In this document: in pieces, positions 6,465 to 22,501 of the stretch
How positions within the stretch are numbered: position 1 is the first letter of the stretch
Layout of the letters: each line of letters begins with the position of its first letter
Origin: Flavobacteriales bacterium
GTDB lineage: Bacteria > Bacteroidota > Bacteroidia > Flavobacteriales_F > PHOS-HE28
Assembly: GCA_019638115.1 (NCBI GenBank)
Contig: JAHBUK010000001.1
Location: forward strand, 62,001 to 126,000
DNA: 64,000 bases
Direction of reading: 5' to 3'
Translations under genes and position numbers: made by a program
The notes under the pieces: model-generated
Told to the model about the DNA's origin: nothing
The model's input: only the letters and a program-made list of their open reading frames with translations
Database searches by the model: none

Positions 6465-6510
6465 CGGACTTTTTTATCCGCATTACATTATTTTCGGATA
6501 TCTTTGTCCG
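6465..6510 (+). promoter_or_regulatory. Tandem CGGA-N8-TCCG operators at the oxidase/hemoglobin promoter
   Basis: Two inverted repeats, CGGA-CTTTTTTA-TCCG (6465-6480) and CGGA-TATCTTTG-TCCG (6495-6510), are exactly 30 bases apart, about three helical turns. The spacer of the second is TATCTTTG, a perfect match to the Bacteroidota -7 consensus TAnnTTTG, so a protein bound there would cover the promoter. The annotated start codon of the next gene is only 19 bases downstream. A repressor of the Rrf2 (NsrR-like) type is inferred. Confidence 0.7.
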
Positions 6511-6528
6511 CATATATTCACCTTCACA

Positions 6529-8313
6529 GTGCATCATCAAGCCACCGCCTGGAAGCATCCTTCCACGGCCCCTCGAGACCCCTCCCACAAAGCCTGCGCA
6601 CCGACCGCATCCGTGATCGTCGCGTTCATGGCGTTCTTCCTGCCCGGTGTATCGCATGCACAGGCCACCCCCACAACGGCCAACTGGATCAGCAGCCCTG
6701 GTGTGATCGGTACGCTGGTCCTGATCGGCATCGTACTACTGGTGGCCGCATTGGTGGTCGGGGCGCGGGTGGACCGGATGTTGAAGGACCTGCGCCGGGC
6801 GAACGATGCGCAAAAGCAAAAACCCACACTGATCGATCATCGGGGTTTGGTCAGCGACGCCACCAGCGATCCCGACATTCCATTGGTGGATGAAAAGAAG
6901 ACCGTTGGCTCCTTGGCAATGGACGTGCCCGAAGGCCTGCGCCGCATGATCCTGTGGTACCTCGGAAGCGCCGTGATCTGGTTGGTGTTCGGCACCCTGG
7001 TGGGGCAGTATGTGGGTATGAAGTTCGTGTGGCCGGACATGGACCAGATCTCGTGGCTATCCTTCGGCCGCTTGCGCCCGGTGCATACCAACACCGTGTT
7101 CTGGGGCTGGGCCTCGCTGGCCATGATCGGGCTGGGCTACTTCGTGGTGACCCGCACCTCGGGTGCTTCGGTGCCCAGCCTTCGCAATGGATGGCGCGCA
7201 CTGTGGCTGATGAACGGGTCCATCGTGCTGGGCAATGTGCTTCTGATGGCGGGCATCAACAACGGTGGCGGCGAGTACCGCGAATACATCTGGCCGGCCA
7301 TGCTGCCTTTCGCATTGGGCCTCTTCCTCACCTTCCGCAACTTCTACGGCACGGTGAAGCGCCGTACCATCGGCGAGATCTACATCAGCAACTGGTACAT
7401 CCTGGCCGCGCTCACGTGGACCCTGGTCCTGGTGACCATCGGCTACCTGCCATGGTACCAGAACGGACTGGGCGAAACCGTGATCCAGGGTTACTATATG
7501 CACCAGGGTGTTGGCATGTGGTTCATGACCTTCACACTGGGTCTGCTCTACTACTACCTGCCGTCGGCCTTCAACCGCCCCATCTATTCCTACTCGTTGG
7601 GTGTGCTGGCCTTCTGGACACAGATGCTGTTCTACACCATGATCGGCACGCACCACTTCGTGTTCGCGCCGTTGCCTTGGTGGCTGCAGACGGTCGCCAT
7701 CGTGTTCAGCGTGGGCATGTTCATTCCCGTGATCGCCGGCACCACCAACTTCCTGATGACCATGCGCGGCAGCTGGAGCGCCATCGGCAAGAGCTACGTG
7801 CTTCCCTTCTTCCTGGTGGCCGTGGTCTTCTACTTCGTGGGCAGTACCCAGGGCAGCCTTCAGGCCTTCCGCTTCACGAACCATATGTGGCACTTCACGG
7901 ACTTCAACGTGGCACATTCGCACATGACCATGTATGGCATCATCACTTTCGCGCTGTGGGCCTGCATGTATGCCATCGTGCCGCGCATCACGGGCAGGGA
8001 GCCGTCACAGTTGCTCGTAGGTGCCCATTTCTGGATGGCCTTCATCGGCCTCTTCGCCTACATGATCTCCCTGATGGCTGGCGGCAGTATCAAGGGCCTG
8101 CAGTGGATCGATGGCAAGCCCTTCATCGACACCGTGATCGGTTCGCGGCCCTACTGGATCTGGCGCGCCATCGGTGGTTCGCTGATGTTCCTCTCACACC
8201 TGCTCTTCGCCTGGAACTTCATCGTGATGGCACGCAGGGACCGTCACGCTGAACATCCCGAACAACTCACGACCGAGCCTGCCGTACTGGAACGCTCACC
8301 CGTCACAGCCTGA
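6529..8313 (+). CDS. C-family (cbb3-type) heme-copper oxidase subunit I with N-terminal extension
   Basis: 594 residues. The core (about 135-575) resembles CcoN: FGRLRPVHT with H186 as low-spin heme ligand, H325 (MHQGVG) as first CuB ligand, H375-H376 (GTHH) as the other CuB ligands, Y369 at the position of the cross-linked catalytic tyrosine of cbb3 oxidases, and H463/H465 (AHSH) for the hemes. The first 130 residues are extra: a signal-like segment (VSHAQA), a membrane helix (about 62-79) and a charged linker. Presence of the tyrosine argues for O2 reduction rather than NO reduction, yet the gene has NsrR-like operators and heads an operon with a truncated hemoglobin. The start is a GTG at 6529; an ATG at 6628 is possible but would shorten the signal segment. 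Confidence 0.85.
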   Translation: MHHQATAWKHPSTAPRDPSHKACAPTASVIVAFMAFFLPGVSHAQATPTTANWISSPGVIGTLVLIGIVLLVAALVVGARVDRMLKDLRRANDAQKQKPTLIDHRGLVSDATSDPDIPLVDEKKTVGSLAMDVPEGLRRMILWYLGSAVIWLVFGTLVGQYVGMKFVWPDMDQISWLSFGRLRPVHTNTVFWGWASLAMIGLGYFVVTRTSGASVPSLRNGWRALWLMNGSIVLGNVLLMAGINNGGGEYREYIWPAMLPFALGLFLTFRNFYGTVKRRTIGEIYISNWYILAALTWTLVLVTIGYLPWYQNGLGETVIQGYYMHQGVGMWFMTFTLGLLYYYLPSAFNRPIYSYSLGVLAFWTQMLFYTMIGTHHFVFAPLPWWLQTVAIVFSVGMFIPVIAGTTNFLMTMRGSWSAIGKSYVLPFFLVAVVFYFVGSTQGSLQAFRFTNHMWHFTDFNVAHSHMTMYGIITFALWACMYAIVPRITGREPSQLLVGAHFWMAFIGLFAYMISLMAGGSIKGLQWIDGKPFIDTVIGSRPYWIWRAIGGSLMFLSHLLFAWNFIVMARRDRHAEHPEQLTTEPAVLERSPVTA

Positions 8314-8320
8314 TCACGCC

Positions 8321-9334
8321 ATGTTCAACTTCCACAAGGACCATAGCAACCTGGTGAACGTGTCACTGGTCGTGTTCGTCGGGTTGAGCGTATTCGTCGC
8401 AGTGATGCCCGCCAACGATCTCGCCACCAACAATGCGCCCCTGCCCAGCATGCCACGCATGACCGAGAGCGAGCGGCGCGGACTGGCCGTGTACGTTTCG
8501 GAGAACTGTGCAGCCTGCCACACCCAACAGGTGCGGAATATCGAAATGGACAAGACCTGGGGTGATCGGCCCAGCCTTCCCAGCGACTACCACTACAGCA
8601 AGGAACGTCAGGATGTGTGGCGTCAATCACCCTCGCTCCTCGGAAGCGAACGCACCGGCCCCGATCTCACCAATGCCGGACAACGCCAGCCCGGCGAGTT
8701 GTGGCACCTGCTGCACTTGTACGATCCGCGCTTGGTTGTGAAAGGATCCATCATGCCCCGCTATGGCTGGCTCTTCGAGGAAACGACCGAACCCACACCC
8801 GATGCGGTGGTGGTGCCTGTACCCGCAGAACGCCTTCGTGATAGCGCGCACAAAGTCGTGGCAACGCAGCGCGCGATCGACCTGGTGGCCTACCTCGTAA
8901 GCTTGAAACAGGCGCCACTGCCCGATGGTACCGCGCCAGGATTCCTGCCCTCGCCGGGAAGGAAGGAAAGCACCGCGAGCATGACGCGCCCGGACGCCCT
9001 GCCCGATGGTGGATCACTCTTCGTGCAGACCTGTTCCGCCTGCCACGGTGCCGAGGGCATGGGCCTGCCCGGGGCGTTCCCGCCGCTGGCCGGTAGCGCC
9101 ATCGTAAACGATGCGGATCCCACGCTGATGATCTCCATCATACTCGGTGGTTATGATGCGCGCGCCGAGTACGGCGTGATGCCTGCTCAGGCGGAACAAC
9201 TAAGCGATGCCGAGATCGCCGCGATCGCCAATTACCTGCGCAGCAGCTTCAGCAACGATGCACCGCCCACCACCACCGAGGCCGTGAAGACCCTGCGCAG
9301 CACCGTTGCTCCACAGACCGCGATCTTACCATGA
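8321..9334 (+). CDS. Two-heme cytochrome c, CcoO- and CcoP-like domains fused
   Basis: 337 residues. An N-terminal membrane anchor (about 10-30) precedes a CcoO-like domain with C63-AA-CH67 and the SIMPRYGWLF motif, whose Met145 is the expected axial ligand. A second CcoP-like domain has C238-SA-CH242 followed by GAEGMGLPGAFPPLAGS. In a classical cbb3 oxidase, CcoO (one heme) and CcoP (two hemes) are separate; here one polypeptide carries one heme from each. It starts 8 bases after the subunit I gene and should be its partner, passing electrons from periplasmic donors to the catalytic subunit. Its stop overlaps the next start (ATGA). Confidence 0.88.
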   Translation: MFNFHKDHSNLVNVSLVVFVGLSVFVAVMPANDLATNNAPLPSMPRMTESERRGLAVYVSENCAACHTQQVRNIEMDKTWGDRPSLPSDYHYSKERQDVWRQSPSLLGSERTGPDLTNAGQRQPGELWHLLHLYDPRLVVKGSIMPRYGWLFEETTEPTPDAVVVPVPAERLRDSAHKVVATQRAIDLVAYLVSLKQAPLPDGTAPGFLPSPGRKESTASMTRPDALPDGGSLFVQTCSACHGAEGMGLPGAFPPLAGSAIVNDADPTLMISIILGGYDARAEYGVMPAQAEQLSDAEIAAIANYLRSSFSNDAPPTTTEAVKTLRSTVAPQTAILP

Positions 9335-9609
9335 GACGTTCATTCACCCTCCTTCTGATTCTGGCAGCAGCCCTACCCGCCCTGGCCTGCGATGTGTGCC
9401 AGAAGAACCAACCCGCTCCCTTGCGCGGCATCACCCATGGCACGGGACCACAAAGCCAATGGGACATGCCCATCGTGTGGATCTCGGCGATCATCGTGGG
9501 CGTCACGCTCTTTCTCGCAGTACGCATGCTGGTGCGGCCCGGCGAGCACGCTCCGGGCCACATCAAACGCTTGGTGTTGAACGAACCCGCTTTCCACCAT
9601 GGAGAATGA
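9331..9609 (+). CDS. Small exported membrane protein with a CxxC motif
   Basis: 92 residues, overlapping the cytochrome gene by 4 bases. Signal peptide (MRRSFTLLLILAAALPALA) followed at once by CDVC near residue 21, then one membrane helix (about 50-70) and a short polar tail. No family recognised. Translational coupling to the oxidase genes suggests an accessory or assembly role, for example metal or heme handling through the CxxC. That role is inference. Confidence 0.7.
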   Translation: MRRSFTLLLILAAALPALACDVCQKNQPAPLRGITHGTGPQSQWDMPIVWISAIIVGVTLFLAVRMLVRPGEHAPGHIKRLVLNEPAFHHGE

Positions 9610-10012
9610 ACGCTTGATCCGTCTGTACATCGATGAGGAGACCGCGCCCTTCGCGGAGTTCGTGCCCCCGGTGAAGTTCGTGCTGGACACCACCAGGCTG
9701 CCCGATGGTCCGCACACCCTGCGGATCGTGGCGCGCTCCACCAGCGGCGTGGAAGGCTTGCGCACCGTGCCCTTCGAGGTACGCAACGGTCCGGACATCC
9801 ATGTGGTGGGACTCGACCCGGACGAGGTGGTCGACGGTCGTATGCCCATAACGATCAACGCCTACGGCAGCGAACGTGCCGACCGTTTCCTGGTCACTGG
9901 CTCCGAAACGCCCAAGGGCATCCCTTCCTGGGTATGGGCCCTGGTGATCGCCTTCATCGGCTTCGCACTCTTCTACTTCATCCTCTTCTGGGAAGGACCC
10001 GTGATCGCATGA
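9599..10012 (+). CDS. Single-pass membrane protein with an Ig-like extracytoplasmic domain
   Basis: 137 residues, overlapping the previous gene by 11 bases. About 105 soluble residues look like a beta-sandwich (PVKFVLDTTRLPDGPHTLRIVA resembles Ig-like or Big domains), followed by one C-terminal helix (WVWALVIAFIGFALFYFILFW). There is no N-terminal signal, so the topology is uncertain. The layout recalls small accessory subunits of cbb3-type oxidases, such as FixH, but I see no diagnostic motif. Confidence 0.68.
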   Translation: MENERLIRLYIDEETAPFAEFVPPVKFVLDTTRLPDGPHTLRIVARSTSGVEGLRTVPFEVRNGPDIHVVGLDPDEVVDGRMPITINAYGSERADRFLVTGSETPKGIPSWVWALVIAFIGFALFYFILFWEGPVIA

Positions 10013-10410
10013 ACATCGAACTACGCGACGACATACACGAGCGCAAGCAGATCGAACTGCTGGTGGATACCTTCTACGGCAAGGTGCGCGTGGACCCCTT
10101 GCTCGGTGGTGTTTTCAATGGCATCATCCGCGATCGCTGGCCCGAGCACCTGGCCAAGATGTATCGCTTCTGGGGCACTGTGCTCACGAATGAAGGCTCC
10201 TACACAGGCTCCCCTGTCCGCCCGCATCTGGACATGCCCATTGGTGCGGAGCACTTCGAGCGGTGGTTGCAGCTATTCCATGCCACGGTGGACGAACTCT
10301 TCGAAGGACCCGTGGCGCAACTGGCCCATCGCAACGCCGACCGCATGGCCGAGATGTTCCAGGACCGCATCGCGCGCTACCGCGATCAACCGCAGCGTTT
10401 TATCCAATGA
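10009..10410 (+). CDS. Group III truncated hemoglobin
   Basis: 133 residues from the ATG at 10009, overlapping the previous gene by 4 bases. Features of group III (TrHbP) globins: VDTFYGKVRVDPLLGGVF at the B/C helices, MYRFWGTVLTNEGSYTGSPVRPHLDMPI with the proximal-side segment, and HFERWLQLFHATVDELF with the F-helix His. Globins of this group bind O2 and NO, and in Campylobacter the homologue is NO-induced. Here it sits inside the oxidase operon behind NsrR-like operators, which fits NO detoxification or NO/O2 shuttling to the oxidase. It could also protect the oxidase from NO. Confidence 0.9.
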   Translation: MNIELRDDIHERKQIELLVDTFYGKVRVDPLLGGVFNGIIRDRWPEHLAKMYRFWGTVLTNEGSYTGSPVRPHLDMPIGAEHFERWLQLFHATVDELFEGPVAQLAHRNADRMAEMFQDRIARYRDQPQRFIQ

Positions 10411-10853
10411 GCTACAAGCTGGCCCATCCCATCGCACTGATCTGCACCTTCACCTGGGTGGGCTTCGTTTGTGCGATCAGCTTCATGGAAGCCTGGTTGA
10501 AGTTCCGTGCGACAGGTGTCACCTTGCCTATCGGGCTGGGAATCGGTCGGCTGGTGTTCCAAGCACTGAACAAGGTAGAATGGGTGCTGGCGATCGCCAT
10601 CGTCGTCGATCTTTTGTGGAAACGGCCGCTCTCTCTGCCGCTTGCGTATGCAGCCGTACCCGTGGTCATCCTCATCATCCAGACCGCCTGGCTCCTCCCC
10701 GCATTGGATGCACGCGCACTGCTCACCATCCACGGACAGGCTCCCGGGCCATCCAACCTGCACTTCATCTACGTCGCCTTCGAAGCGATAAAGGTGGGTG
10801 CGTTGGTTTTCTTCGGAACCAAACTCTTCCTGCCCCTTAGCACCGAAGGATGA
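10407..10853 (+). CDS. Four-helix membrane protein, unknown
   Basis: 148 residues from the ATG at 10407, overlapping the hemoglobin stop by 4 bases. Four hydrophobic segments, with His at residue 7 (KLAHPIAL) and another near 119 (NLHFIYVAFEAIK), which could be heme ligands. No family recognised. It is the last gene of the tightly packed operon that starts at 6529, so I infer a role linked to the oxidase or to NO, but the sequence alone does not show which. Confidence 0.7.
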   Translation: MSYKLAHPIALICTFTWVGFVCAISFMEAWLKFRATGVTLPIGLGIGRLVFQALNKVEWVLAIAIVVDLLWKRPLSLPLAYAAVPVVILIIQTAWLLPALDARALLTIHGQAPGPSNLHFIYVAFEAIKVGALVFFGTKLFLPLSTEG

Positions 10854-10869
10854 TCAACTAACACTTTAC

Positions 10870-10913
10870 ATGATCGCGGTCATACTATTCGGATAGTATT
10901 GTCCGTTATTTTG
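10870..10913 (+). promoter_or_regulatory. Dual-control promoter of the ric operon
   Basis: A Crp/Fnr-like inverted repeat ATGAT-CGCG-GTCAT (10870-10883) is followed by CGGA-TAGTATTG-TCCG (10890-10905) and then by TTATTTTG (10906-10913), a one-mismatch -7 box. The Crp/Fnr box centre is 29.5 bases from this -7 box, exactly as at the nos promoter. The CGGA repeat fills the gap between activator and -7 box, where a bound repressor would block polymerase. Alternatively the -7 box is TAGTATTG inside the repeat. Confidence 0.68.
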
Positions 10914-10945
10914 ACGCAAGCTCCAACACAACCCATCCTACCAAC

Positions 10946-11686
10946 ATGTCAAACACCATCACACCCGAACGCACCATCGGCTCCATTGTCGCCGACGACT
11001 TCCGCACCGCCGCCGTTTTCAGCCAGCACGGTATCGACTTCTGCTGCCGTGGCGGACGCAGCCTCGAAGAAGTGTGCAAGAAGAATGGACTCGACCAGGC
11101 CACTATCGAACAAGAACTCCGGCAGGCCATGGATCGGAACAACGACACCAACGAGGACTACCGGACGTGGCCCATGGGGCGCTTGATCGAACACATCGAA
11201 CGCGTGCATCACCGTTACGTGGAGAGCCGGTCCCTCACCCTTCTTCAGTTCCTCGAAAAGCTCTGCAAAGTACACGGCGACCGCCACCCGGAACTCTTCG
11301 ACATCAACCGCGAATTCAACGAATGCGCCGGTGCCATGGCCGCCCACATGAAGAAGGAGGAACTCCTCCTATTCCCCTTCATCAACCAGTTGGAAAAGGC
11401 GAAGCAGCACGGCACCACCCTGCCCACGCCGCATTTTGGCACGGTGGACAACCCCATTGCCATGATGGAACAGGATCACGATGCCGAGGGCGAACGCTTC
11501 CGTCGCATCGCCGAGCTGAGCAAAGGCTACACCAACCCACCCGACGGCTGCACCACCTACGCCACGGCCATGGCCATGCTGCAGGAATTCGAGCAGGACC
11601 TTCACCTGCACATCCATCTGGAGAACAACATCCTGTTCCCACGGGCGAAGGTGCTGGAGAACGAATTGCGCCATGCCACCGCTTGA
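10946..11686 (+). CDS. ric: Iron-sulfur cluster repair di-iron protein RIC (YtfE/ScdA)
   Basis: 246 residues, the usual family length. The N-terminal ScdA domain has the CC motif (C33-C34 in DFCCRGG). The hemerythrin-like domain supplies conserved His/Glu iron ligands: HIERVHHRYVE, HMKKEELLLFPF, EQDHDAEG and HLENNILFPR. RIC proteins restore Fe-S clusters damaged by NO or peroxide and are a hallmark NsrR target. That agrees with the CGGA-N8-TCCG site upstream, and the Crp/Fnr box suggests added activation under denitrifying conditions. The reading frame overlaps the next gene by 14 bases. Confidence 0.96.
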   Translation: MSNTITPERTIGSIVADDFRTAAVFSQHGIDFCCRGGRSLEEVCKKNGLDQATIEQELRQAMDRNNDTNEDYRTWPMGRLIEHIERVHHRYVESRSLTLLQFLEKLCKVHGDRHPELFDINREFNECAGAMAAHMKKEELLLFPFINQLEKAKQHGTTLPTPHFGTVDNPIAMMEQDHDAEGERFRRIAELSKGYTNPPDGCTTYATAMAMLQEFEQDLHLHIHLENNILFPRAKVLENELRHATA

Positions 11687-12113
11687 ACGCCATGCCCTGC
11701 TGCGGCCCGTGAGTCGGGAGCATTACGACGGACTGATGCTCTGCTGGCACATCCGTCGCGCGCTGACCCAAGGGGGTGACCCCGACGCGCAGATGCGGGC
11801 TTGTGCCGACTTCTACCACACGCACCTCTTGTCCCATTTCGCGATCGAGGAGGAGGCCGTGTTCCCGGTGCTTGGTGCCGAGGACCCGCTGGTGAAGCGT
11901 GCCCTGGCGGAGCACCGTCGGCTCACGCGGCTCTTCATGGCCTGGGAAGACCCGTTACGCAACCTGTCACTGATCGAGGAAGAGTTGGAAGCACACATCC
12001 GATTCGAGGAACGCGTGCTGTTCCAACGCGTACAGGAAGTGGCCACCGAGGAGGAGCTGGAGCGGATCGACAGGTTGCACGGGCTCTTGGCTGGCGCTGA
12101 ACTCTTATCATGA
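11673..12113 (+). CDS. Small hemerythrin-like protein
   Basis: 146 residues, one four-helix bundle. Possible iron ligands: H17 (REHYDG), H26 (CWHIRR), FYHTHLLSHFAIEEEAVFP, EHRRLTRLF and HIRFEERVLFQ. These match the H/HxxxE spacing of HHE domains. The start overlaps ric by 14 bases, so the two are translationally coupled. It probably binds O2 or NO, or helps the RIC protein; single-domain hemerythrins beside ric are seen in other NO-response loci. Exact ligand not determinable. Confidence 0.85.
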   Translation: MPPLERHALLRPVSREHYDGLMLCWHIRRALTQGGDPDAQMRACADFYHTHLLSHFAIEEEAVFPVLGAEDPLVKRALAEHRRLTRLFMAWEDPLRNLSLIEEELEAHIRFEERVLFQRVQEVATEEELERIDRLHGLLAGAELLS

Positions 12114-13798
12114 CCACGTCAAGAGTTACCTACATGCGTACACCACGATCACTGGCCGTCATCTTGGCAGTTGCATCCATTTCCGCCCTGGCCCAAAACC
12201 CCTTGGCCATTCCGCCCACGCTCATGGCGGACACCTTCATGCTTACAGTGGGCCAGCATGTACACCAGTTCTATCCCGGTGTCAACACCACCACCTTCGG
12301 AGTGAACGGGCCCTATCTCGGACCCACGCTCTTGATGCAACGTGGGGATACCGCCCGCCTGCGAGTGATCAATGAATTGCCGCAGGTGACCAGCATGCAC
12401 TGGCATGGCATGCACGTTCCAGGTGACATGGACGGTGGCCCGCAACGTGAAGTAATGCCCGGCGAAGTGTGGGACGTGAAGTACAAGGTGGAGAACCCGG
12501 CAGGCACCTACTGGTACCACCCGCATCCGCACATGCTCACCGCCTCGCAGGCTACCAAAGGCGTTGCCGGCATGATCATCGTGCGCGATGCGGAGGAAGC
12601 AGCGTTGGACTTGCCACGGACCTATGGTGTGGATGATATCCCTGTTGTGATCCAGGACCGACGCTTCCTTGCCAACGGTAACATGCCCACGGCGCCATAC
12701 GGCGATTCGGTGCTGGTGAACGGAACCCCGCATGCCTACCTGGATTGCCCGGCCCAAGTGGTGAGACTGCGACTGCTCAACGGCGCCAATGCACGCGTCT
12801 TCGCGCTCGGCTTCGAGAACGGCGAGCAGATGCATGTGATCGCCGGTGATGCCGGGCTGCTTCAAGCCCCCGTGGCCACCGACAGGCTGTGGCTGAGCAA
12901 CGGCGAACGATACGAAGTACTGCTGGACCTCACAGGCATGGAAGGCGACAGCCTGCTGCTGATGAGCTTCGGCAGTGAACTGCCCCAGACCGTGCCCGGT
13001 GCCAACAACATCCTCTGGGAAAGCAGTTGGCTCAATGGCATCGATTTTCCGGTGCTGCGCATCCGTGTCACCGCTCCCACGGCGGATCCAGTGACCGGCA
13101 TCCCAGCCACCCTTGTCCCTGTGCAACCGTGGGATGAAGCGCTTTCGGTACGCACCCGCATCAAGGCCCTTAGCGGCAACGGCATGGTGGGCATGGGCAT
13201 GTTCATGATCGATGGGCAGATGTTCGACCTCAATGTGATCAACGACACGGTACAACTGGGCAGCGTGGAGATCTGGGAGATCCCCAACAACTCCAACATG
13301 GCGCATCCCATGCACATCCATGGGGTTTCGTTCTACATGTTGGAACGCAACGGCATTGCACCAGCACCTTGGGAGCAAGGCGCCAAGGATGTGGTGCTTG
13401 TTGATGCTGGCGAAACCGTCCGCCTCATCATGCGCTTCGATCACCCCACCGATGGCTGGCCGTTCATGTACCATTGCCACAACCTGTTGCACGAGGACAA
13501 CATGATGATGCTGCAATTCATCGTGACGGACCCACTCACCGTGGGCACAACAGAACCGCCCACTGGTGATGCGATCGGCATTTTCCCCAACCCCACCTCC
13601 GGTCTTGTATGGTTGCACAGCACAACACCTGTGGATGAATTCTTCGTGCATGACATGAGCGGCCGTGAACTCATGCGTGCAAGGGTCAACAGTGCCACGG
13701 AAGTTCCGATCGATCTGGAGAGACTACCTCCGGGTCCGTACTTGGTGAGCGTAGTACGCGGTGGAATGCGCACGGTCCAGCTGATGGTCCGCGAGTAG
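12110..13798 (+). CDS. Secreted multicopper oxidase with a type IX sorting domain
   Basis: 562 residues if started at the ATG overlapping the previous stop; the in-frame ATG at 12134 (MRTPRSLAVILAVASISALAQ) gives a cleaner signal peptide. Cupredoxin copper motifs: HWHG (about residue 95), YWYHPHPH (about 140), HPMHIHG (about 400) and a C-terminal YHCHNLLHEDNMM that holds the HCH bridge and the type 1 site with Met. The last 75 residues start IFPNPTSG and end in a short beta-rich tail, the type A sorting signal for the T9SS, so the enzyme should be exported to the surface. The family includes CotA and FtsP-like oxidases. Its place in the ric operon is unusual and suggests a copper or redox job under NO stress. 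Confidence 0.92.
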   Translation: MTTSRVTYMRTPRSLAVILAVASISALAQNPLAIPPTLMADTFMLTVGQHVHQFYPGVNTTTFGVNGPYLGPTLLMQRGDTARLRVINELPQVTSMHWHGMHVPGDMDGGPQREVMPGEVWDVKYKVENPAGTYWYHPHPHMLTASQATKGVAGMIIVRDAEEAALDLPRTYGVDDIPVVIQDRRFLANGNMPTAPYGDSVLVNGTPHAYLDCPAQVVRLRLLNGANARVFALGFENGEQMHVIAGDAGLLQAPVATDRLWLSNGERYEVLLDLTGMEGDSLLLMSFGSELPQTVPGANNILWESSWLNGIDFPVLRIRVTAPTADPVTGIPATLVPVQPWDEALSVRTRIKALSGNGMVGMGMFMIDGQMFDLNVINDTVQLGSVEIWEIPNNSNMAHPMHIHGVSFYMLERNGIAPAPWEQGAKDVVLVDAGETVRLIMRFDHPTDGWPFMYHCHNLLHEDNMMMLQFIVTDPLTVGTTEPPTGDAIGIFPNPTSGLVWLHSTTPVDEFFVHDMSGRELMRARVNSATEVPIDLERLPPGPYLVSVVRGGMRTVQLMVRE

Positions 13799-14108
13799 CG
13801 CTATACTCAGACCAGCTCCCGCTCCCAGCCTCCTTGTCAAGCCCTCCGTTTGGCGGCGAGGTTGAACGAGAAGCCCGTACTTATCATAACGGGGAGGGGA
13901 ATCGGCTGGCAGCGGAATTATTGGAACCATACTGCCCGCCACGAACCTGCCAAGGAGAACGGCAGGTTCGTATTGAAAAGGCAGTGAATAGCCCTGGCCG
14001 TTCGGCATGGCAACGCGCATCAAAGGAAATGGCTGCTCAAAGAGCGGTCATCGATAGTTCCAAATTCTCTTCCATTCCAGACCTGACCGTGACCTTCATC
14101 ACAAACAT
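13799..14108. other. Intergenic stretch with an 11-bp stem hairpin
   Basis: No gene seen. ACGAACCTGCC (13941-13951) and GGCAGGTTCGT (13961-13971) form a perfect 11-bp stem around a 9-base loop, with no T-run after it. It lies about 140 bases beyond the multicopper oxidase stop and may end or process that operon's transcript. The rest shows no clear repeat or reading frame. Confidence 0.5.
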
Positions 14109-14133
14109 GTTAGTGAACACTTACATACCTTTG
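14109..14133 (+). promoter_or_regulatory. TetR-type operator and -7 box of the efflux operon
   Basis: GTTAGTGAACACTTAC (14109-14124) is a 16-bp palindrome with one mismatched pair, typical in size for TetR-family operators. It is directly followed by TACCTTTG (14126-14133), an exact TAnnTTTG -7 box, 19 bases before the ATG of the first gene. A TetR gene is the second gene of the operon, so autoregulation is likely. Confidence 0.65.
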
Positions 14134-14152
14134 TGCCATCCACGACGATGAC

Positions 14153-14566: not shown

Positions 14567-15140
14567 GCCCCGCCAACTGGAGATCATCGAAGCCGCCGGT
14601 CAGTTGATGACGGAGGATGGCATCGCCGGCCTCACCACCAAGCGCCTGGCCGAACGCATGCACTTCACCGAAGCGGCCCTTTACCGCCACTTCAAGAGCA
14701 AGGAGGAGATCCTGGTGACCATGCTGCATCACCTCGCATCGAACATCGACGAGCGCCTTGCCAGCGTGGCCGAAGCCCATCCGGAGCCTGTAGAGCGGGT
14801 GCGTGCCATGTTCGACAGCCAGTTCACCTACTTCCAGAAGAACCCCCAATACCTCATGGCCATCTTCGCCACAGGGATGCTGGAGGCTTCGCAGGGCATC
14901 GATGCCGGCATTGAACGCATCATGGTGGTGAAACGCCGCCACCTCATTGCAGCGATCAAGGATGGACAGCATAGCGGCGCGTTCACCAAGCAGTTCCCGG
15001 CTGAAACCCTCTCTCACATCATCATGGGCACCTTCCGCCTGCACATGCTGCGATGGCGCATGAGCGGCCGCACGTTCGATGTGCTGCGGAAAGGTCGCCC
15101 ACTCGTTCAAGCTGTGCTCACCCTGATCAAAAGCCGCTGA
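14556..15140 (+). CDS. TetR-family repressor
   Basis: 194 residues. The N-terminal helix-turn-helix has the classic pattern (IAGLTTKRLAERMHFTEAALYRHFKSKEEIL, about residues 25-55). The C-terminal ligand domain is all-helical. It probably represses its own operon through the palindrome at 14109-14124. In this family such genes commonly control adjacent RND pumps, and the pump genes follow here. Ligand unknown. Confidence 0.93.
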   Translation: MDIKPRQLEIIEAAGQLMTEDGIAGLTTKRLAERMHFTEAALYRHFKSKEEILVTMLHHLASNIDERLASVAEAHPEPVERVRAMFDSQFTYFQKNPQYLMAIFATGMLEASQGIDAGIERIMVVKRRHLIAAIKDGQHSGAFTKQFPAETLSHIIMGTFRLHMLRWRMSGRTFDVLRKGRPLVQAVLTLIKSR

Positions 15141-15188
15141 TCCCGACCACCGCTCTTATAGCGGACCATCCTCCCAACTGGACCGACC

Positions 15189-15605
15189 ATGAAAAAGAGA
15201 CACTGGACACGGATCATCCTTGGGATCATCATTGCCCTCTTCGGTGCCCTGACCCTGTTCCTGAGCAGTGCTGTGCTGCTCGACCTCTTCGGCGTTCGCG
15301 AACGCGAGTCTCCCTTTGTCCATGCCGTTGTGGTGGGCAACCTGATCGCATCGCTCCTCTACCTCCCCACCAGTTACGGCATGCTGACGAACCGCCGCTG
15401 GACCTTGCTGCTGCTCACCGTTGCGATCAGCGTGCTGGTGGCCAGCGCCTTGTTGCTCGGGCTCCACATCGCGGCGGACGGCGAATACCGCACTGCGACC
15501 ATTGGAGCGCTCGCCTTCCGGATCCTGCTCACTGCCATCTTCCTTGGGCTCGCAAAATGGAGCCTCTCTCCATCCGCCGAACAAACACCACACACCGCAT
15601 CATGA
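15189..15605 (+). CDS. Four-helix membrane protein, unknown
   Basis: 138 residues, four hydrophobic segments (about 8-30, 43-65, 68-93 and 105-125) with short loops. It starts 48 bases after the TetR gene and its stop overlaps the next start. No family recognised; it is probably a cotranscribed accessory membrane protein of the efflux operon. Confidence 0.7.
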   Translation: MKKRHWTRIILGIIIALFGALTLFLSSAVLLDLFGVRERESPFVHAVVVGNLIASLLYLPTSYGMLTNRRWTLLLLTVAISVLVASALLLGLHIAADGEYRTATIGALAFRILLTAIFLGLAKWSLSPSAEQTPHTAS

Positions 15606-16069
15606 ACCCGCTCAAAACGATACTCGCCCTGGCACTTGGAACAGGTTTCCTTATCAGCTGCGGCGGTAACGACCACACACGAACGGACGCGAACGACGCC
15701 GGGCATGAACACGCCGCAGGAACCACCGCAGCGGCCAGTGAAGTGAACGCGGCCTTGCCGAAAGTGGACCTCGACAACGGGCGCCGCTGGAAAGCCAACC
15801 CCGAGACCACCGAGGGCATCGCCAACATGCAACGCATCCTGACCGGGTACGACCCCGTTGCCGGAGATGCCGCAGCCTTGAAGGCCGAACTGGACGAAGA
15901 GTTCAAGCTCATCTTCGAACGCTGCACCATGACCGGGGAGTCGCACGAGCAGCTCCACAACTACCTGATCCCCATCCATCATGCGCTGGCCGACCTCGAC
16001 GGTGGTCGCGAGGCGGACCGCGACACGATCGCTGCCCTGCTGGCCCGCTATAGCGACTACTTCGAATAG
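15602..16069 (+). CDS. Lipoprotein with His-rich and helical segments
   Basis: 155 residues from the ATG at 15602. Lipoprotein signal with LISC, acceptor Cys at about residue 20, then a short disordered segment with His (DAGHEHAAG). The C-terminal half is helical, with FERCTMTGESHEQLHNYLIPIHHAL: one Cys, several His and a Met in the spacing of a helical metal-binding bundle. No firm family. Placed just ahead of the TolC-like gene (3-base gap), it may bind a metal ion or hydrophobic substrate in the periplasm. Confidence 0.72.
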   Translation: MNPLKTILALALGTGFLISCGGNDHTRTDANDAGHEHAAGTTAAASEVNAALPKVDLDNGRRWKANPETTEGIANMQRILTGYDPVAGDAAALKAELDEEFKLIFERCTMTGESHEQLHNYLIPIHHALADLDGGREADRDTIAALLARYSDYFE

Positions 16070-16072
16070 GCC

Positions 16073-17395
16073 ATGAAAAAGATCGCACGCATCGCACTGA
16101 TCGCTTCCCTGGGAGCGCTGCTCGGCACCACGATCACCCCGGTGAACGCGCAGACGGTAAGCTTGGAGCACTGCATCACCCAGGCGCTGGGCCATGACGC
16201 CCGTGCCTTGGTGGCGGGTGTGGATGCGGAGATCGCCGGGGCACGCATCGCCGAGGCGAAGAGCGCCCTGTTGCCCAAGGTGCGTGGCTCGGCCGACTGG
16301 CGCTACTACACCGACCTGCCCTACCAACTGCTGCCAGCGTCCGTTTTCGGTGGACCCGCCGACTCCTACCGCGCACTCCAGTTCGGCACCACACAGAACA
16401 TGGGCGCCAACGTGCAGGCCCAGCTTCCGCTGGTGGACGCAGGCAACTGGGAACGCATCCACGTGGCCCGCGAAGCGGAACAGGCGGCCCGGCTGATGGC
16501 CGATGGTACGCGTGAGGACGTGGTGATGGATGTTTCCCTGGCCTACTACACCGCCCAGGTCCTTCAGCTGAAGCTGGCCTTCCTGGACAGCAACGTCACG
16601 AGCACCACTTCACTGCTGGGCAATGTGCGCCTGATGCGCGAACAGTCCATGGCCCGCGGCACCGACGTGGACCGCCTGCAGCTGCAGCTGGACCAACTGC
16701 TCACGCAGCGCGAACGGGTGCAGGCCCAATTGGACCAGACCTTGGATGTGCTCCGCCTGCACATGGGTCTGGGGGTCGACGTGCCCTTGGCCGTGGAGCC
16801 ACCGGGTACGGCCATCGAACCCGGCATGAACGCACCGCTTGCCACCACGCGCCTGCGGGCTGCGGAACAGGGGCTGCGCGTGCAGGAAGCGGAGATCCGC
16901 TTGTTGAAACGTTCCCGACTACCCAGCTTGAACGGACAGGGACTCTACGGTACCACAGGCTTCGGCCCCATCGGTAGCGAGGAGCGCTTCGACTTCTATC
17001 CCATCGGTTTCTTCGGCGTATCGCTCCAGGTGCCGCTCTTCAACGGGACCACGGTGCAGCGCCGCATCGGGATCAAGGAACTGGAGCGCGACAAGGCCGC
17101 GCTGCAACGCGATGCCCTTGCCGAACGCGACAGCCTGGACCTACGCCGTACCGAGCGCGACGAGACCCTGGCCCGCAGGACCCTGCAGGATGCGGGATCG
17201 CAACTGGGCCTTGCCGAACGCATCCGGAAGAACACCGACCTGCAACACCGCGAAGGCATGGCCACCCTCAGCGATCTCGTCCTGGCCGACCAGGCCCATC
17301 GCGAAGCACAACAACTCTACCTCGATGCCCTGGTGCAATTGCGCAGGGTGCAACTGGAACGCCGCCGCCTGCACGGAACCCTCATCCCCCGCTGA
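16073..17395 (+). CDS. TolC-family outer membrane efflux protein
   Basis: 440 residues, the family's normal length. Signal peptide ending in VNAQT, then two OEP repeats with long coiled-coil helices (for example residues 135-230) and short barrel segments. It forms the outer membrane channel of the tripartite pump encoded by the next two genes. It is translated 3 bases after the lipoprotein gene and 5 before the adaptor. Confidence 0.92.
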   Translation: MKKIARIALIASLGALLGTTITPVNAQTVSLEHCITQALGHDARALVAGVDAEIAGARIAEAKSALLPKVRGSADWRYYTDLPYQLLPASVFGGPADSYRALQFGTTQNMGANVQAQLPLVDAGNWERIHVAREAEQAARLMADGTREDVVMDVSLAYYTAQVLQLKLAFLDSNVTSTTSLLGNVRLMREQSMARGTDVDRLQLQLDQLLTQRERVQAQLDQTLDVLRLHMGLGVDVPLAVEPPGTAIEPGMNAPLATTRLRAAEQGLRVQEAEIRLLKRSRLPSLNGQGLYGTTGFGPIGSEERFDFYPIGFFGVSLQVPLFNGTTVQRRIGIKELERDKAALQRDALAERDSLDLRRTERDETLARRTLQDAGSQLGLAERIRKNTDLQHREGMATLSDLVLADQAHREAQQLYLDALVQLRRVQLERRRLHGTLIPR

Positions 17396-17400
17396 ACACC

Positions 17401-18441
17401 ATGAAACGCTGGATCCCCTGGTTAGTGATCACCGCCCTGCTGGTGGCCACCGTTGTGAAGCTCGCACAGAACAAGCGCACCGTGGAGGAACGCATATACC
17501 GCCATGACAAGAGCGCGCCGGTGCATGTGGGCGTGGATACCGTGCGCCTGCAGACCATGGCCTCGGGCCAGCGCTTCGGGGGCACGGTGGTGGCGCGCAA
17601 CGAAGGCCGCGTGATGGCCGAAGTACCGGGCCGTGTGGTGAGCGTGGACGTCCGTGAGGGGCAGTGGGTGGAGCGCGGTGCCGTGATCGCCCGGTTGGAC
17701 GGCGAGCTGCTGCGCCTGCAACAGGAGGCCGCCCGCGTAACGGTTCAGGGGCTGGAGAAGGATGAGGCACGCTATCGGATACTGGCACAGGCGGATGCCG
17801 TGCAGGGCGTTCAACTGGAAAAGACCGAACAGGCCCTGGAGGCGGCACGCATCCAACTGGCCAACGTGAGCGAGCAGTTGCGCCGCACCACGATCAGCGC
17901 ACCGTTCAGCGGGCAGGTGATGCAGTTGCTGGTGGAAGTGGGATCGGTGGTGGGGCCCTCGGCACCCGTGGCGCAGCTGAGCGACCACCGCGAATTGGAA
18001 GTGCTCCTACAGGTCTCCGAGCAGGAGGTGGACCTCTTCCGCCCGGGTGCTACGGCTCGGGTATCCATGGCCCGCATGTCGCAGCCCATCCAGGGGACCA
18101 TCACCCAGGTGGGTCGCCGTGGCGATGCCGCCAACCGTTTCACCGTGCGCATCGACCTGCCCGGAGCGACCGAACTGCGTGCCGGACTTTCGGCCAGCGT
18201 GCAGCTGCCCGGTGCGGAAGAGGTAGGCCTGCCCACCATTCCCACCCGCGCCCTCGTGGGTTCCACCGTGGCGCCGGAGGTGTATCTGGTGCGCGACGGA
18301 AAGGCCCACCGCAAGGCCATCACCACGGTATCCAGTGGCGACGGCATGGTGGCCGTATCCACCGGCCTGCAAGCCGGGGATGTGGTGATCACCAGCGGCT
18401 TCATCAGCATCACCGATGGATCGGCCGTTACCGTGCAGTAA
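17401..18441 (+). CDS. RND pump periplasmic adaptor (membrane fusion protein)
   Basis: 346 residues. One N-terminal membrane helix, then the split lipoyl domain (GRVVSVDVREGQWVERGAVIARLDG and ISAPFSGQVMQLLVEVGSVVG), a helical hairpin between them and beta-barrel and membrane-proximal domains. It links the inner-membrane RND protein to the TolC channel. The order TolC-adaptor-RND is typical for Bacteroidota. Confidence 0.93.
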   Translation: MKRWIPWLVITALLVATVVKLAQNKRTVEERIYRHDKSAPVHVGVDTVRLQTMASGQRFGGTVVARNEGRVMAEVPGRVVSVDVREGQWVERGAVIARLDGELLRLQQEAARVTVQGLEKDEARYRILAQADAVQGVQLEKTEQALEAARIQLANVSEQLRRTTISAPFSGQVMQLLVEVGSVVGPSAPVAQLSDHRELEVLLQVSEQEVDLFRPGATARVSMARMSQPIQGTITQVGRRGDAANRFTVRIDLPGATELRAGLSASVQLPGAEEVGLPTIPTRALVGSTVAPEVYLVRDGKAHRKAITTVSSGDGMVAVSTGLQAGDVVITSGFISITDGSAVTVQ

Positions 18442-18468
18442 TACGCGAATATCGAAGAACCCTTCGCC

Positions 18469-21400
18469 ATGAACCTCACCCGCATCGCCATTGAGCGGCC
18501 ATCGCTCATCATCGTCATCTTCGGTGTGCTGTTGCTGGGCGGCATAGTGGCCTACCGTGGCCTGGGCGTGGAGCTCATGCCCGACTTCAACCAGCCGGTG
18601 ATCACCGTGCGCACCCTGTACCCCGGCGCGGCGCCGGAGGAGGTGGCCACCAGCGTGACCCGTCCCGTGGAGGATGCCCTCAGCGCGCTGGAGCACGTGG
18701 ACTACATCAGCAGCCGTTCGTTGTCCAATGCCTCCATCGTCATCGTCAACTTCAAGTATGGCGCCGACCTCGATCTGGCCATGCAGGATGCGCAGCGCCG
18801 CATCGACAACATCCGGCAGGAACTGCCCGAAGGGCTTCAGGCGCCCGTGATGACGAAGGTCTCACCCAACGACCTGCCCATCATGAGCGTGAGCGCCCAG
18901 AGCGGTCAGGCGGCACCGGCCTTCCTCCAGCACATGGAGGACGACCTGCTCCCCCGCATCCAGCAGTTGAAGGGCGTGGCGGAGATCACCCTGCTGGGCG
19001 GCGAGCAGCGGGAAGTGCTGGTGAAGGTGGACCAGGAACGGCTGCTGAACCATGGTGTCGCCTTGCCACAGGTCACCGAGGCCATTCTGCGTGCAGGCCG
19101 CGAAGTGCCGGCCGGCACCGTGCGCACCGAAGGCGACCAACTGAGCGTGAAGCTCGCCGGGAAACTCACCACCGTGCAGGACATCGAGGACGTGGTGGTG
19201 GCCATGCCCATGCCCGGCAGCGTGGTGCACGTGAAGGACGTGGCCACTGTGGTGGACGGTCTTGCGGACGCCACCTCGGTGAACCGCTACAACGGGCGGG
19301 AGGGCATCGGCCTGCTGATCAAGAAACAGGGCGATGCCAACGCCGTGACCATGAGCCGTGCCGTGCGCACCGAGCTGGCCCGCATCGAACAGGAGGAGGC
19401 TCACTGGGGCACCCACTTCATTGTGGCCGACGACAGCACCGATACCACCTTGGAGGCCGTGAACGCTGTGCTCTTCGACCTGGGTCTCGCCGTGGTGCTC
19501 GTCTCCCTGGTCATGCTGCTCTTCCTGCGCAGCCTGCGCAATTCGTTCATCGTGCTCATCGCCATCCCGGCATCGCTGGTCAGCGCCTTCGTCGCCATGG
19601 GCCTGCTGGGGTACACCCTCAACCTGATGACCCTGCTGGCCATGTCGCTCATCATCGGCATCCTGGTGGACGACAGCATCGTGATCCTGGAGAACATCCA
19701 GCGCTACCTGGACAAGGGCATGGACAAACGCAGCGCTGCACTCACCGGGCGTGCCGAGATCGGCTTCTCCGCCCTGTCCATCACCTTGGTGGATGTGGTG
19801 GTGTTCCTGCCCATCATCTTCGTGCAGGTCTTCGTGGCCGATCTGCTCAAGCAGTTCAGCGTGGTGGTGGTGGTGTCCACGCTCATGAGCCTCTTCGTCA
19901 GCTTCACCCTCACCCCCTGGCTGGCCTCGCGCCTGGGCAAACGTGAGGAGCTCCTTCCCACCAACCCCTACAACCGTTTCCTGCTCGCCACCGAGCGGCA
20001 GCTGGACCGCCTGAACGAGTGGTACGCCGACAAACTGCGTTGGGTGCTCAGCCACAAGCTTGCGTTCATCGGCATTGTCCTGGCGCTCTTCGCCGGCACG
20101 GGCATCATGATGAAGCAAGGCATCATGGGCAAGGAGTTGATCGCCACCGGTGACCAGGGCAAATTCCGTCTCACGCTGGAATACGACAAGCAGACCACTG
20201 TGCGGGAGAACAACCTGCGCTCACGCGAAGTGGAGGCCTTCCTCCTGGCACAGCCCGAAGTACGGTCCGTGTTCAGCAATGTCGGCGGACCCAGCACCGG
20301 CATCGGCAGCATGGGCGTGGGCGCCGAATACCGCACGGAGCTCACCATCGACCTGGTGGGCCGGAAGGAGCGTGGTGATCGGAGCACCGAAGCGTACATG
20401 ATGCAGGCGCGGCGTGATCTGCAGGAGCGCTTCGCGGCCATCGACATCACCATGTCCACCATCGGCCTGGTGCCCCGCAGCGCACCCGTGGAGATCACCC
20501 TGAGCGGTCCCGACGTCGCCGAGTTGGAACGCACCGCTCTGCTGCTGAAGGACACCCTCGCGGGCATCCCCGGAGCGAACAACGTGCGCCTGAGCACCGA
20601 GCGCGGGGCACCCGAACTGCGCGTGCTGCTGGACCGTGATCGCATGGCACGACTGGGCCTGAACACCTCAGCCGTGGGGGCAACCCTGCGCAACGCACTG
20701 GCCGGCAACGACGATGCACGGCTATACGAGGACGGCACCGAATACACCATCCGGGTGCGCCTGGACGATCAGCAGCGCCGCGATGCCGTGGACCTGGAGC
20801 GGCTCGTGGTCATCAACGGTGCAGGCCTGCCCGTGCGCTTGGGCCAGTTCGCCACTGTGGAACGCCACGCGCCACCCTCCCTTGTGGAACGCATGGACCG
20901 CATGAGCGCCGTGACACTCACCGCCGATGCGTTGGGCCGTGGATCGGGCAGCGTGGCGGACGATGTGGTGGCCTACCTGGCGAAGAACCCACTGCCTGCG
21001 GGGGTGCGCATGACCTGGGGCAGCGACGTGAAACGGCAGAACGACAGCTTCGGTGCACTCGGTGGGGCGCTGCTGATCTCCTTCATCCTCGTGTACCTGG
21101 TGATGGTGGCGCTCTACGACAGCTTCCTCCACCCCTTCGTGGTGCTCTTCAGCATCCCTGTGGCGGTGATCGGCGCCTTCCTCGCCCTGAACCTCACCCT
21201 CTCCACCCTCAGCCTCTTCACGCTGCTGGGCCTCATCATGCTACTGGGACTGGTGTCCAAGAACGCCATCCTCATCGTGGACCGAACGAACCAGCTGATC
21301 GCCGAGGGCATGCCCCGCCTGGAAGCATTGGTGGAGGCCGGGCGCACGCGGTTGCGGCCCATCATCATGACCACCATCGCCATGGCCTTGGGTATGCTCC

Positions 21401-21606
21401 CCATCGCGCTGGCCTCCGGCACGGGCAGCGAATGGAAGAACGGACTGGCCTGGGCGCTGATCGGCGGCCTCACCAGTTCTATGCTGCTCACCGTGTTCCT
21501 GGTGCCCGTGGTCTACCACATCGCTGAAAGCGGTCGCGAACGCCTGGCCTCTTGGTGGCAACGGACCTTCCGCAGGAAGGCGGTACTGCCCAATAACCCT
21601 GCATGA
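18469..21606 (+). CDS. RND efflux permease, AcrB/HAE1 type
   Basis: 1045 residues with the 12-helix, two-loop RND layout. The N-terminal segment MPDFNQPVITVRTLYPGAAPEEV is typical, and GILVDDSIVILENIQR in the fourth helix has the paired Asp of the proton relay, so a drug/H+ antiport mechanism is expected rather than metal export. It probably exports hydrophobic compounds under TetR control. Its stop overlaps the next start (ATGA). Confidence 0.95.
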   Translation: MNLTRIAIERPSLIIVIFGVLLLGGIVAYRGLGVELMPDFNQPVITVRTLYPGAAPEEVATSVTRPVEDALSALEHVDYISSRSLSNASIVIVNFKYGADLDLAMQDAQRRIDNIRQELPEGLQAPVMTKVSPNDLPIMSVSAQSGQAAPAFLQHMEDDLLPRIQQLKGVAEITLLGGEQREVLVKVDQERLLNHGVALPQVTEAILRAGREVPAGTVRTEGDQLSVKLAGKLTTVQDIEDVVVAMPMPGSVVHVKDVATVVDGLADATSVNRYNGREGIGLLIKKQGDANAVTMSRAVRTELARIEQEEAHWGTHFIVADDSTDTTLEAVNAVLFDLGLAVVLVSLVMLLFLRSLRNSFIVLIAIPASLVSAFVAMGLLGYTLNLMTLLAMSLIIGILVDDSIVILENIQRYLDKGMDKRSAALTGRAEIGFSALSITLVDVVVFLPIIFVQVFVADLLKQFSVVVVVSTLMSLFVSFTLTPWLASRLGKREELLPTNPYNRFLLATERQLDRLNEWYADKLRWVLSHKLAFIGIVLALFAGTGIMMKQGIMGKELIATGDQGKFRLTLEYDKQTTVRENNLRSREVEAFLLAQPEVRSVFSNVGGPSTGIGSMGVGAEYRTELTIDLVGRKERGDRSTEAYMMQARRDLQERFAAIDITMSTIGLVPRSAPVEITLSGPDVAELERTALLLKDTLAGIPGANNVRLSTERGAPELRVLLDRDRMARLGLNTSAVGATLRNALAGNDDARLYEDGTEYTIRVRLDDQQRRDAVDLERLVVINGAGLPVRLGQFATVERHAPPSLVERMDRMSAVTLTADALGRGSGSVADDVVAYLAKNPLPAGVRMTWGSDVKRQNDSFGALGGALLISFILVYLVMVALYDSFLHPFVVLFSIPVAVIGAFLALNLTLSTLSLFTLLGLIMLLGLVSKNAILIVDRTNQLIAEGMPRLEALVEAGRTRLRPIIMTTIAMALGMLPIALASGTGSEWKNGLAWALIGGLTSSMLLTVFLVPVVYHIAESGRERLASWWQRTFRRKAVLPNNPA

Positions 21607-22379
21607 ACCGGTGCACAAGCGCCAGCAAACACGTGAACCCCATGAACACAACGACCATCAACCCGAAGCTCCGTTCCGCCATCAAGCTGCGCCACCTGGT
21701 GGAGGCTATCAGCACCGACTGGCAACAGATCGCCACCATCCAAGGCAGCGTGAACAAGCAACTGCAGCAGGCCGAAAGCCTCGCCGAACAGTATGGCGAC
21801 AGCGCCTTCCAGGGCGAGTTCAATACCCTGCTGGCAGCTCTGCGCGACCACATGAAGGGCGTCGTTGCGCAACTGGAACAGGCCAAGGCAGCCCTCGCAC
21901 AGGGCGGCCCCATCGACCCGGCCATGGATTGGACCGGCATGCAGACCCGGCTCCGTGCGGCCGAGGATGTCTTCCGTCGTATGAGCGACCTTCCGTTCGC
22001 CACCACCGACGGCGCCAATGCCCAGGATTGGAAGACCCTGTGGAAGGTGGTACGCTCCAACCTCGATGCCGTGCAGGGTCTGTGCAGTGCTGCCTACCTC
22101 AAGGCCCGCATGATCGCCGACCTCGGCAAGGACGAGGCCGAAGCGCTAACCGCCACCATCCTCCAGCACATCCCACGCAGCTTCTCCCTTACCGAAGCTG
22201 ACCAATACGAACGCGACTACCTGGCCGCGATGGACCAGATCAAGGAGGATGCCTCCAAGAAGACCGATCTCTGGGACCGCGTCCTGAACATCATCGCTGG
22301 TGCCATCCCCTTCGAAGAGAGCCCTGCCGAACGCGTGATGATGCAGCGCTGGATCAACGGGGAGAAGGGAGCACTGTGA
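21603..22379 (+). CDS. Helical cytosolic protein of unknown function
   Basis: 258 residues; an internal start at 21642 (MNTTTINPKL) would give 245 and avoid the Cys-rich odd leader. It is mostly alpha-helical, with likely coiled-coil around residues 40-110 (QGSVNKQLQQAESLAEQYG). No signal peptide, membrane helix or motif is evident. It overlaps the RND gene by 4 bases, so it is probably cotranscribed. Function unknown. Confidence 0.65.
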   Translation: MNRCTSASKHVNPMNTTTINPKLRSAIKLRHLVEAISTDWQQIATIQGSVNKQLQQAESLAEQYGDSAFQGEFNTLLAALRDHMKGVVAQLEQAKAALAQGGPIDPAMDWTGMQTRLRAAEDVFRRMSDLPFATTDGANAQDWKTLWKVVRSNLDAVQGLCSAAYLKARMIADLGKDEAEALTATILQHIPRSFSLTEADQYERDYLAAMDQIKEDASKKTDLWDRVLNIIAGAIPFEESPAERVMMQRWINGEKGAL

Positions 22380-22485
22380 ACAGCTCAGACCAAGTGGTCG
22401 CATTCTGAACACACATCGATCCGTGGCGTGCCAAAAGACATTCAGAGCCGTGTGACCTCCATCACCTTGGTGGCCGTCCAGATAT

Positions 22486-22501
22486 CGGACATTTGTATCC
22501 G
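22486..22501 (+). promoter_or_regulatory. CGGA-N8-TCCG operator upstream of the DUF302 gene
   Basis: CGGA-CATTTGTA-TCCG, same architecture as those of the oxidase operon and ric, 22 bases before the ATG at 22524. GACATTTG (22488-22495) overlaps it and matches the -7 consensus at five of its six fixed positions. It suggests that the DUF302 gene has its own regulated promoter inside the 3' part of the efflux region. Confidence 0.65.

Follow-up and report, generated by a model that had tools for sequence, protein, structure and literature searches.

Bacteroidota rank among the major carriers of clade II nitrous oxide (N2O) reductase and, outside work on HcpR, we know of no account of how N2O reduction and defence against nitric oxide (NO) are switched in this phylum. 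For Escherichia coli and other beta- and gammaproteobacteria the NsrR operator has been described as gATGyAT-N5-ATrCATc (Rodionov 2005, PMC1274295); the Bacteroidota lay outside the NsrR coverage of that study, in which only HcpR was assigned to Bacteroides. In fosmids from Bacteroidetes, Rrf2 genes have been reported next to clade II nosZ; no operator, regulon or mechanism was offered, and the authors called their role hard to predict (PMC6264515). Here we analyzed a 64,000-nucleotide stretch (the window) of a Flavobacteriales genome (assembly GCA_019638115.1, contig JAHBUK010000001.1, positions 62,001 to 126,000), which carries two rrf2 genes, nosZ, ric and an oxidase/hemoglobin operon. Our findings suggest, with a probability of roughly 0.8, that a clade of iron-sulfur (Fe-S)-type Rrf2 regulators spread through the Bacteroidota has the palindrome GGAYA-N4-TRTCC as its operator; repression would be relieved by NO, with a Crp/Fnr-type regulator as a second input.

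A constrained palindrome precedes rrf2 genes across the Bacteroidota

We took 79 rrf2 loci (1.31 Mb, 90.5% coding) from a genome collection with the Rrf2 protein alignment only. Almost all are from Bacteroidota (Zobellia, Maribacter, Aquimarina, Roseivirga, Echinicola, Cellulophaga and others). Together they carry 84 copies of GGAYA-N4-TRTCC, of which 69 fall outside open reading frames (ORFs), whereas every other spacer from N0 to N10 gave 1-5 copies and scrambled half-sites gave 0-8. A perfect core lies at most 160 bp upstream of rrf2 at 50 of the 79 loci, compared to 4 of 861 other ORFs (Fisher 2e-57), and a position weight matrix (PWM) placed a site upstream of rrf2 at 61 loci. The genes downstream of the operators are rrf2 (48 sites), ric (14), a CcoN-like oxidase (4), nirK (3) and qNor (3), as well as nosZ and a nos cytochrome. 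A preliminary description of this DNA had proposed an NO-stress regulon with Rrf2 as the binding protein. Across the phylum the motif precedes the rrf2 gene itself, which supports the latter, and ric, truncated hemoglobin, qNor, nirK and nos support an NO/denitrification-type regulon in Bacteroidota; as read from sequence, both the regulon and its assignment to Rrf2 are well supported. The slot just behind rrf2 holds qNor, the CcoN-like oxidase or ric, depending on the genome, each preceded by an operator (L147, L162 and L190 versus L154, L160, L196 and L129).

The operator had originally been defined as CGGA-N8-TCCG, from four perfect inverted repeats ahead of the oxidase/hemoglobin operon, ric and DUF302. 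All four are present and intergenic (O2 to O5, Table 1), and a shared operator of these three transcription units is borne out, but the motif definition is not: in the 4.06-Mb genome the bare form is found 114 times against 116 for a reversed control, and we rejected it in favor of GGAYA-N4-TRTCC. Within the window it occurs 5 times against 1.72 expected, a count reached in 3 of 100 shuffles, and the fifth match (53944-53959) has no PWM score. The narrower CGGAYW-N4-WRTCCG has six copies in the genome, four of which are these four sites. The chance of at least four of six falling in one given 16-kb stretch is ~4e-9, a figure to be read with caution since the pattern was picked with the sites already seen. 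Of the other two copies, one is inside an open frame, presumably for a phosphofructokinase-like protein, and the second, a GC-rich one, reaches 8 bits. Equal abundance in coding DNA, or lack of conservation upstream of orthologs, had been named as grounds for abandoning the motif. The bare form is indeed at control level, whereas the constrained form lies mostly outside ORFs and is kept ahead of orthologous genes in related loci and genomes.

The PWM was built from other Bacteroidota loci only, the window not included, and yields five window sites at or above 14 bits (14.7-19.8) against 0.095 expected. These are the four repeats and a fifth site, O1 at the nos promoter, which had been overlooked. 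Imperfect operators were scanned in the window, and the rest of the genome was covered by pattern matches; perfect-core matches there all lie within long open frames and were rejected as regulon members on account of that location. An identical perfect core, GGACAAAGCTGTCC, occurs twice in coding DNA of the window (24362-24377, 12.6 bits; 34891-34906, 9.1 bits), probably by chance.

The operator lies on core promoter elements

Bacteroidota promoters have the classic form TTTG-N19/20-TAnnTTTG. Counted from the first G of the operator, a perfect -7 box (TAnnTTTG) begins after 27-33 nt in 41 of the 48 rrf2 promoters (0.2 in shifted windows). This spacing, together with a TTTG at operator positions 7-10, indicates that at rrf2 the -33 box lies under the operator. 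In the oxidase promoter of the window, O3 encloses the perfect -7 box and O2 lies 33 nt ahead of that box, such that one dimer may occupy the -33 box and another the -7 box. The distance between O2 and O3 is exactly 30 bp, roughly three turns of the helix, so two dimers could bind on the same face of the DNA; most relatives retain just one of the two. At ric, O4 ends immediately before a TTnnTTTG box.

The -7 boxes reported earlier are present: TATCTTTG at 6499-6506 is a perfect one, and the ric and DUF302 sites contain boxes with one mismatch. The claim that the half-sites bracket the -7 box holds for the oxidase operon and approximately for DUF302; it fails for ric, where the operator is just upstream of the box, and for rrf2 promoters. 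Overlap with the -7 box was thus rejected as a general rule.

The Rrf2 proteins and their possible signal

The two Rrf2 proteins belong to the Rrf2 superfamily (PF02082, 81.4 and 73.7 bits; cut-off 30). The three cysteines noted in each are the cluster-type Cys93, Cys100 and Cys106; both proteins also have Cys6, and the second has Cys15 as well. The three cluster-type cysteines align with those of E. coli NsrR, Streptomyces coelicolor NsrR and IscR, and do not discriminate between classes since IscR shares them. Both proteins fell short of the curated NsrR equivalog model, which represents enterobacterial-type NsrR (23.3 and 25.2 bits; cut-off 182), and of that for IscR (48.4 and 47.1 bits; cut-off 207.55). 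The window proteins are NsrR-like rather than NsrR.

Like those of NsrR regulons, the targets serve NO detoxification and repair. Because they encode RIC, hemerythrin, truncated hemoglobin, qNor and NirK, we infer that NO is the signal. An alternative is that Rrf2 binds the motif but senses Fe-S status, redox or O2, as in IscR and RsrR, with the NO genes forming part of an anaerobic or Fe-S-stress programme. IscR and SUF-regulator models score the window proteins higher (47-49 bits, all far below cut-off) than NsrR does, a PDB comparison puts NsrR, RsrR and IscR at similar distances, and the oxidase and N2O reductase could follow O2. Nonetheless, no isc or suf gene is among the operator targets in the 79 Rrf2-selected loci, the targets center on NO chemistry, and the x6/x5 cysteine spacing is that of Neisseria NsrR. 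We thus consider a signal other than NO unlikely.

A Crp/Fnr-type regulator as second input

A crp gene lies between the two rrf2 genes of the window, and the tandem order rrf2-crp-ric is found in three other genomes (G017, G019, G025). The preliminary description named only the Rrf2 proteins as regulators; this second regulator had been overlooked. A perfect TGAC-N4-GTCA palindrome precedes the operator in 3/3 nos promoters (the window, L126 and L198), and it is present with at most one mismatch in 12 of 15 same-genus ric promoters (control ~1.4%). In most of these ric promoters its center is 29-30 nt from the -7 box, and at nos it likewise stands 29-30 nt ahead of the box. With the start site taken ~4 nt past the box, this would put the palindrome near -41.5, which is the class II position for activators of the Crp/Fnr type. 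The arrangement is only weak at DUF302. These sites suggest that nos and ric may be under dual Rrf2 and Crp/Fnr control. The Crp/Fnr protein itself passes no equivalog model. TGAC-N4-GTCA was rejected as a phylum-wide partner, having been found nearby (at most one mismatch) at only 6 of 84 operator sites.

The position of crp, between the rrf2 genes and adjoining the sites, also raises the idea that its product, not Rrf2, binds GGAYA-N4-TRTCC. However, linkage of crp to rrf2 is rare (3 of 79 loci), whereas the motif precedes rrf2 in most, which argues against the operator being a Crp/Fnr site. Furthermore, Crp/Fnr sites hold GA-N6-TC spacing and the operator GA-N8-TC, a separate palindrome at the class II distance is available to Crp/Fnr, and the operators remain in genomes with no crp ortholog (G008-like and other families), making this very improbable. 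Finally, chance or promoter composition, i.e., TTTG and TAnnTTTG elements with fortuitous CGGA/TCCG flanks, would fit the control-level frequency of the bare motif and a spacer favored by AT-rich intergenic DNA, but is refuted by the exact spacing dependence (84 versus 1-5 copies) and the rrf2 association, as well as by conservation in unrelated families, and has a negligible probability.

Target genes in the window

O1 lies between the nos cytochrome and nosZ on one side and a divergent operon that opens with a heme-copper-like gene and rrf2A on the other. O1 and its homologous operators in L126 and L198 therefore place nos in the regulon. The heme-copper-like protein (AlphaFold pLDDT 82; Foldseek match to cbb3/NOR subunit I, TM-score 0.77) has homologs in 15 of 79 rrf2 loci, with invariant His42/44 (helix II), His173 (helix VI) and His309 (helix X) and no invariant His pair for CuB among the homologs. 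The model is consistent with a degenerate or NnrS-like heme-copper relative.

The oxidase subunit I, for which ATG 6628 is a possible alternative start, conserves the catalytic Tyr and the CuB His ligands of the O2-reductase set. It was not supported as a nitric oxide reductase, the active-site Glu of cNOR/qNOR being absent. It may function in NO-resistant respiration, because it lies directly behind rrf2, where relatives have qNor. In its own genome, rated complete, we found neither a Prismane/Hcp gene nor a NirK above cut-off, and the COX1 family has just three members, none of them NOR-like as examined (the aa3-like one falls outside the alignment). The 148-aa membrane protein that ends the operon has a homolog in Tenacibaculum (L136:10569-11015) with two operators of its own upstream, and is probably a genuine NO-response gene.

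The ric operator is kept 43-116 bp upstream in 15 same-genus genomes, our own included. In L073-L080 (same-genus ric, 58-60% identity) and rrf2 loci L099, L104 and L109, the operator is at rrf2 and not at ric; a second ric-like gene (33-40% identity, frame ~500-600 codons) is common in these genomes.

Table 1 Predicted genes and promoter elements of the nos-rrf2-ric region and the DUF302 locus (window coordinates).
Feature	Position	Strand	Support or remark
nosZ, Sec-dependent (clade II) N2O reductase	662-2650	-	TIGR04246 896 bits, above cut-off
c-type cytochrome preceding nosZ, first gene behind O1	2682-3146	-	operator-preceded homologs in L126, L177
nos candidate -7 box GATATTTG	3180-3187	-	one mismatch to TAnnTTTG
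Operator O1, AGGATATTTAGGTCCT, toward nos	3190-3205	-	PWM 14.7 bits; homologous operators at same place in L126, L198
Crp/Fnr-type palindrome TGACAGGAGTCA upstream of nos	3211-3222	-	perfect TGAC-N4-GTCA; kept with different N4 in L126, L198
12-helix membrane protein, heme-copper oxidase subunit I fold, divergent from nos	3277-4512	+	AlphaFold and Foldseek; no Pfam/NCBIfam family
rrf2A, Rrf2 regulator, C93-x6-C100-x5-C106	4536-4976	+	PF02082 E 9e-23
Crp/Fnr family regulator, candidate binder of TGAC-N4-GTCA	5222-5911	+	PF00027 and PF13545
rrf2B, Rrf2 regulator, C93-x6-C100-x5-C106	5986-6420	+	PF02082 E 2e-20
Operator O2, over -33 region of oxidase operon promoter	6465-6480	+	perfect repeat, PWM site
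Operator O3, encloses perfect -7 box	6495-6510	+	position kept in G009, G010, G026, G027 with TACTTTTG
-7 box TATCTTTG inside O3	6499-6506	+	perfect match
CcoN-like C-family heme-copper oxidase subunit I	6529-8313	+	PF00115 E 1e-77; TIGR00780 below cut-off
FixO/CcoO-cytochrome c fusion	8321-9334	+	PF02433, PF00034
Small conserved protein, oxidase operon	9331-9609	+	homologs in 11/79 rrf2 loci
Conserved membrane-anchored protein, oxidase operon	9599-10012	+	homologs in 12/79 loci
Truncated hemoglobin	10009-10410	+	PF01152 E 4e-6; homologs in 30/79 rrf2 loci
148-aa membrane protein without family, last gene of oxidase/hemoglobin operon	10407-10853	+	
Crp/Fnr-type palindrome TGATCGCGGTCA upstream of ric	10871-10882	+	one mismatch
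Operator O4 of ric	10890-10905	+	PWM 19.8 bits
ric -7-like box TTATTTTG	10906-10913	+	TTnnTTTG in relatives
ric, di-iron Fe-S cluster repair protein	10946-11686	+	TIGR03652 227 bits, cut-off 204.7
Hemerythrin-domain protein, same operon as ric	11673-12113	+	PF01814; homologs in 28/79 loci
Multicopper oxidase overlapping hemerythrin gene, probable operon member	12110-13798	+	PF07732/PF07731
Weak Crp/Fnr-type palindrome TGACCTCCATCA	22453-22464	+	one mismatch; 29 nt before GACATTTG
Operator O5 of DUF302	22486-22501	+	PWM 17.4 bits
DUF302 protein	22524-22913	+	PF03625 E 2.5e-20

Proposed mechanism

We propose that the product of rrf2A and/or rrf2B would sit as a dimer on the core promoter and block RNA polymerase, on the -33 box in rrf2 promoters, on the -33 and -7 boxes in the oxidase operon, and in the spacer beside the -7 box at ric and nos. 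NO would damage the cysteine-ligated cluster and the dimer would leave the DNA, allowing RIC, hemerythrin, truncated hemoglobin, the cbb3-like oxidase, DUF302 and N2O reductase to be made. The second input, at nos and ric, may come from a Crp/Fnr-type activator encoded by the gene at 5222-5911 and bound to TGAC-N4-GTCA near -41.5.

Several findings weigh against this picture. In the window no operator stands directly upstream of either rrf2 gene or of crp, 18 of 79 rrf2 genes lack an upstream PWM site, and the operator is missing with more distant Rrf2 proteins (G037, G040, G048, G054 and, in part, G036). Same-genus ric genes of 57-60% identity are found without an operator, and ric in other families has no clear -7 box accompanying it. 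DUF302 is not a conserved target, with 0 homologs in the 79 rrf2 loci. In addition, the loci were retrieved by rrf2 and the motif is thus tied to the locus, such that another linked factor is excluded only indirectly, by the rarity of linked crp (3/79).

A broader version of the Rrf2/NO reading, to which we give somewhat better than even odds, holds that the phylum-wide regulon has its own operator on the -33/-7 elements; that in the genus of the window Crp/Fnr at -41.5 makes N2O reductase and Fe-S repair require both signals; and that, without NO reductase, hcp or nirK, the cbb3-like oxidase and truncated hemoglobin replace qNor.

Comparison with known systems

The proposed operator would allow the regulon to be read in thousands of genomes and the timing of N2O consumption to be predicted. 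It may also serve as a finder of NO-related genes, here the heme-copper-like protein, the 148-aa membrane protein, DUF302 and the cbb3-like oxidase, and it provides an example of a putative repressor site built on the promoter elements of the phylum itself. We found no description of GGAYA-N4-TRTCC in the literature searched, a scope that excluded subscription papers and RegPrecise.

The system resembles NsrR in having an Rrf2-family protein with three Cys ligands and a regulon that includes RIC/ytfE, NO reductase and nirK, and in that hcp-type promoters there pair an upstream FNR-like site with a downstream NsrR site, whereas GGAYA-N4-TRTCC is not of the gATGyAT-N5-ATrCATc type (PMC1274295). 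It further differs in that the window Rrf2 proteins are ~19% identical to E. coli NsrR and in having no hmp or hcp. The half-sites of RsrR resemble CGGATA/TGTCCG, which we treat as a lead only. RsrR of Streptomyces venezuelae is likewise an Rrf2 protein, near in a profile search, autoregulated and with an inverted-repeat operator over the promoter, but it has an 11-3-11 bp repeat, a redox [2Fe-2S] sensor and NAD(P)H targets (PMC5015018).

Similar to HcpR, this is an NO response in Bacteroidota, and one HcpR consensus, TTGAC-N4-GTCAA, matches the second palindrome (PMC1274295; Bacteroides thetaiotaomicron, PMC13370916). The outer T is not kept in the candidate site TGAC-N4-GTCA at nos and ric, and HcpR regulates hcp, which is absent from this genome. 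The Bacteroidetes fosmids with rrf2 beside clade II nosZ have the same neighbourhood, and Rrf2 regulators were reported as enriched there (PMC6264515). NsrR-type NO regulons are already known; new with respect to the literature searched are an operator of this form, the fact that it is spread across the phylum and sits on Bacteroidota promoter elements, and the proposed dual control.

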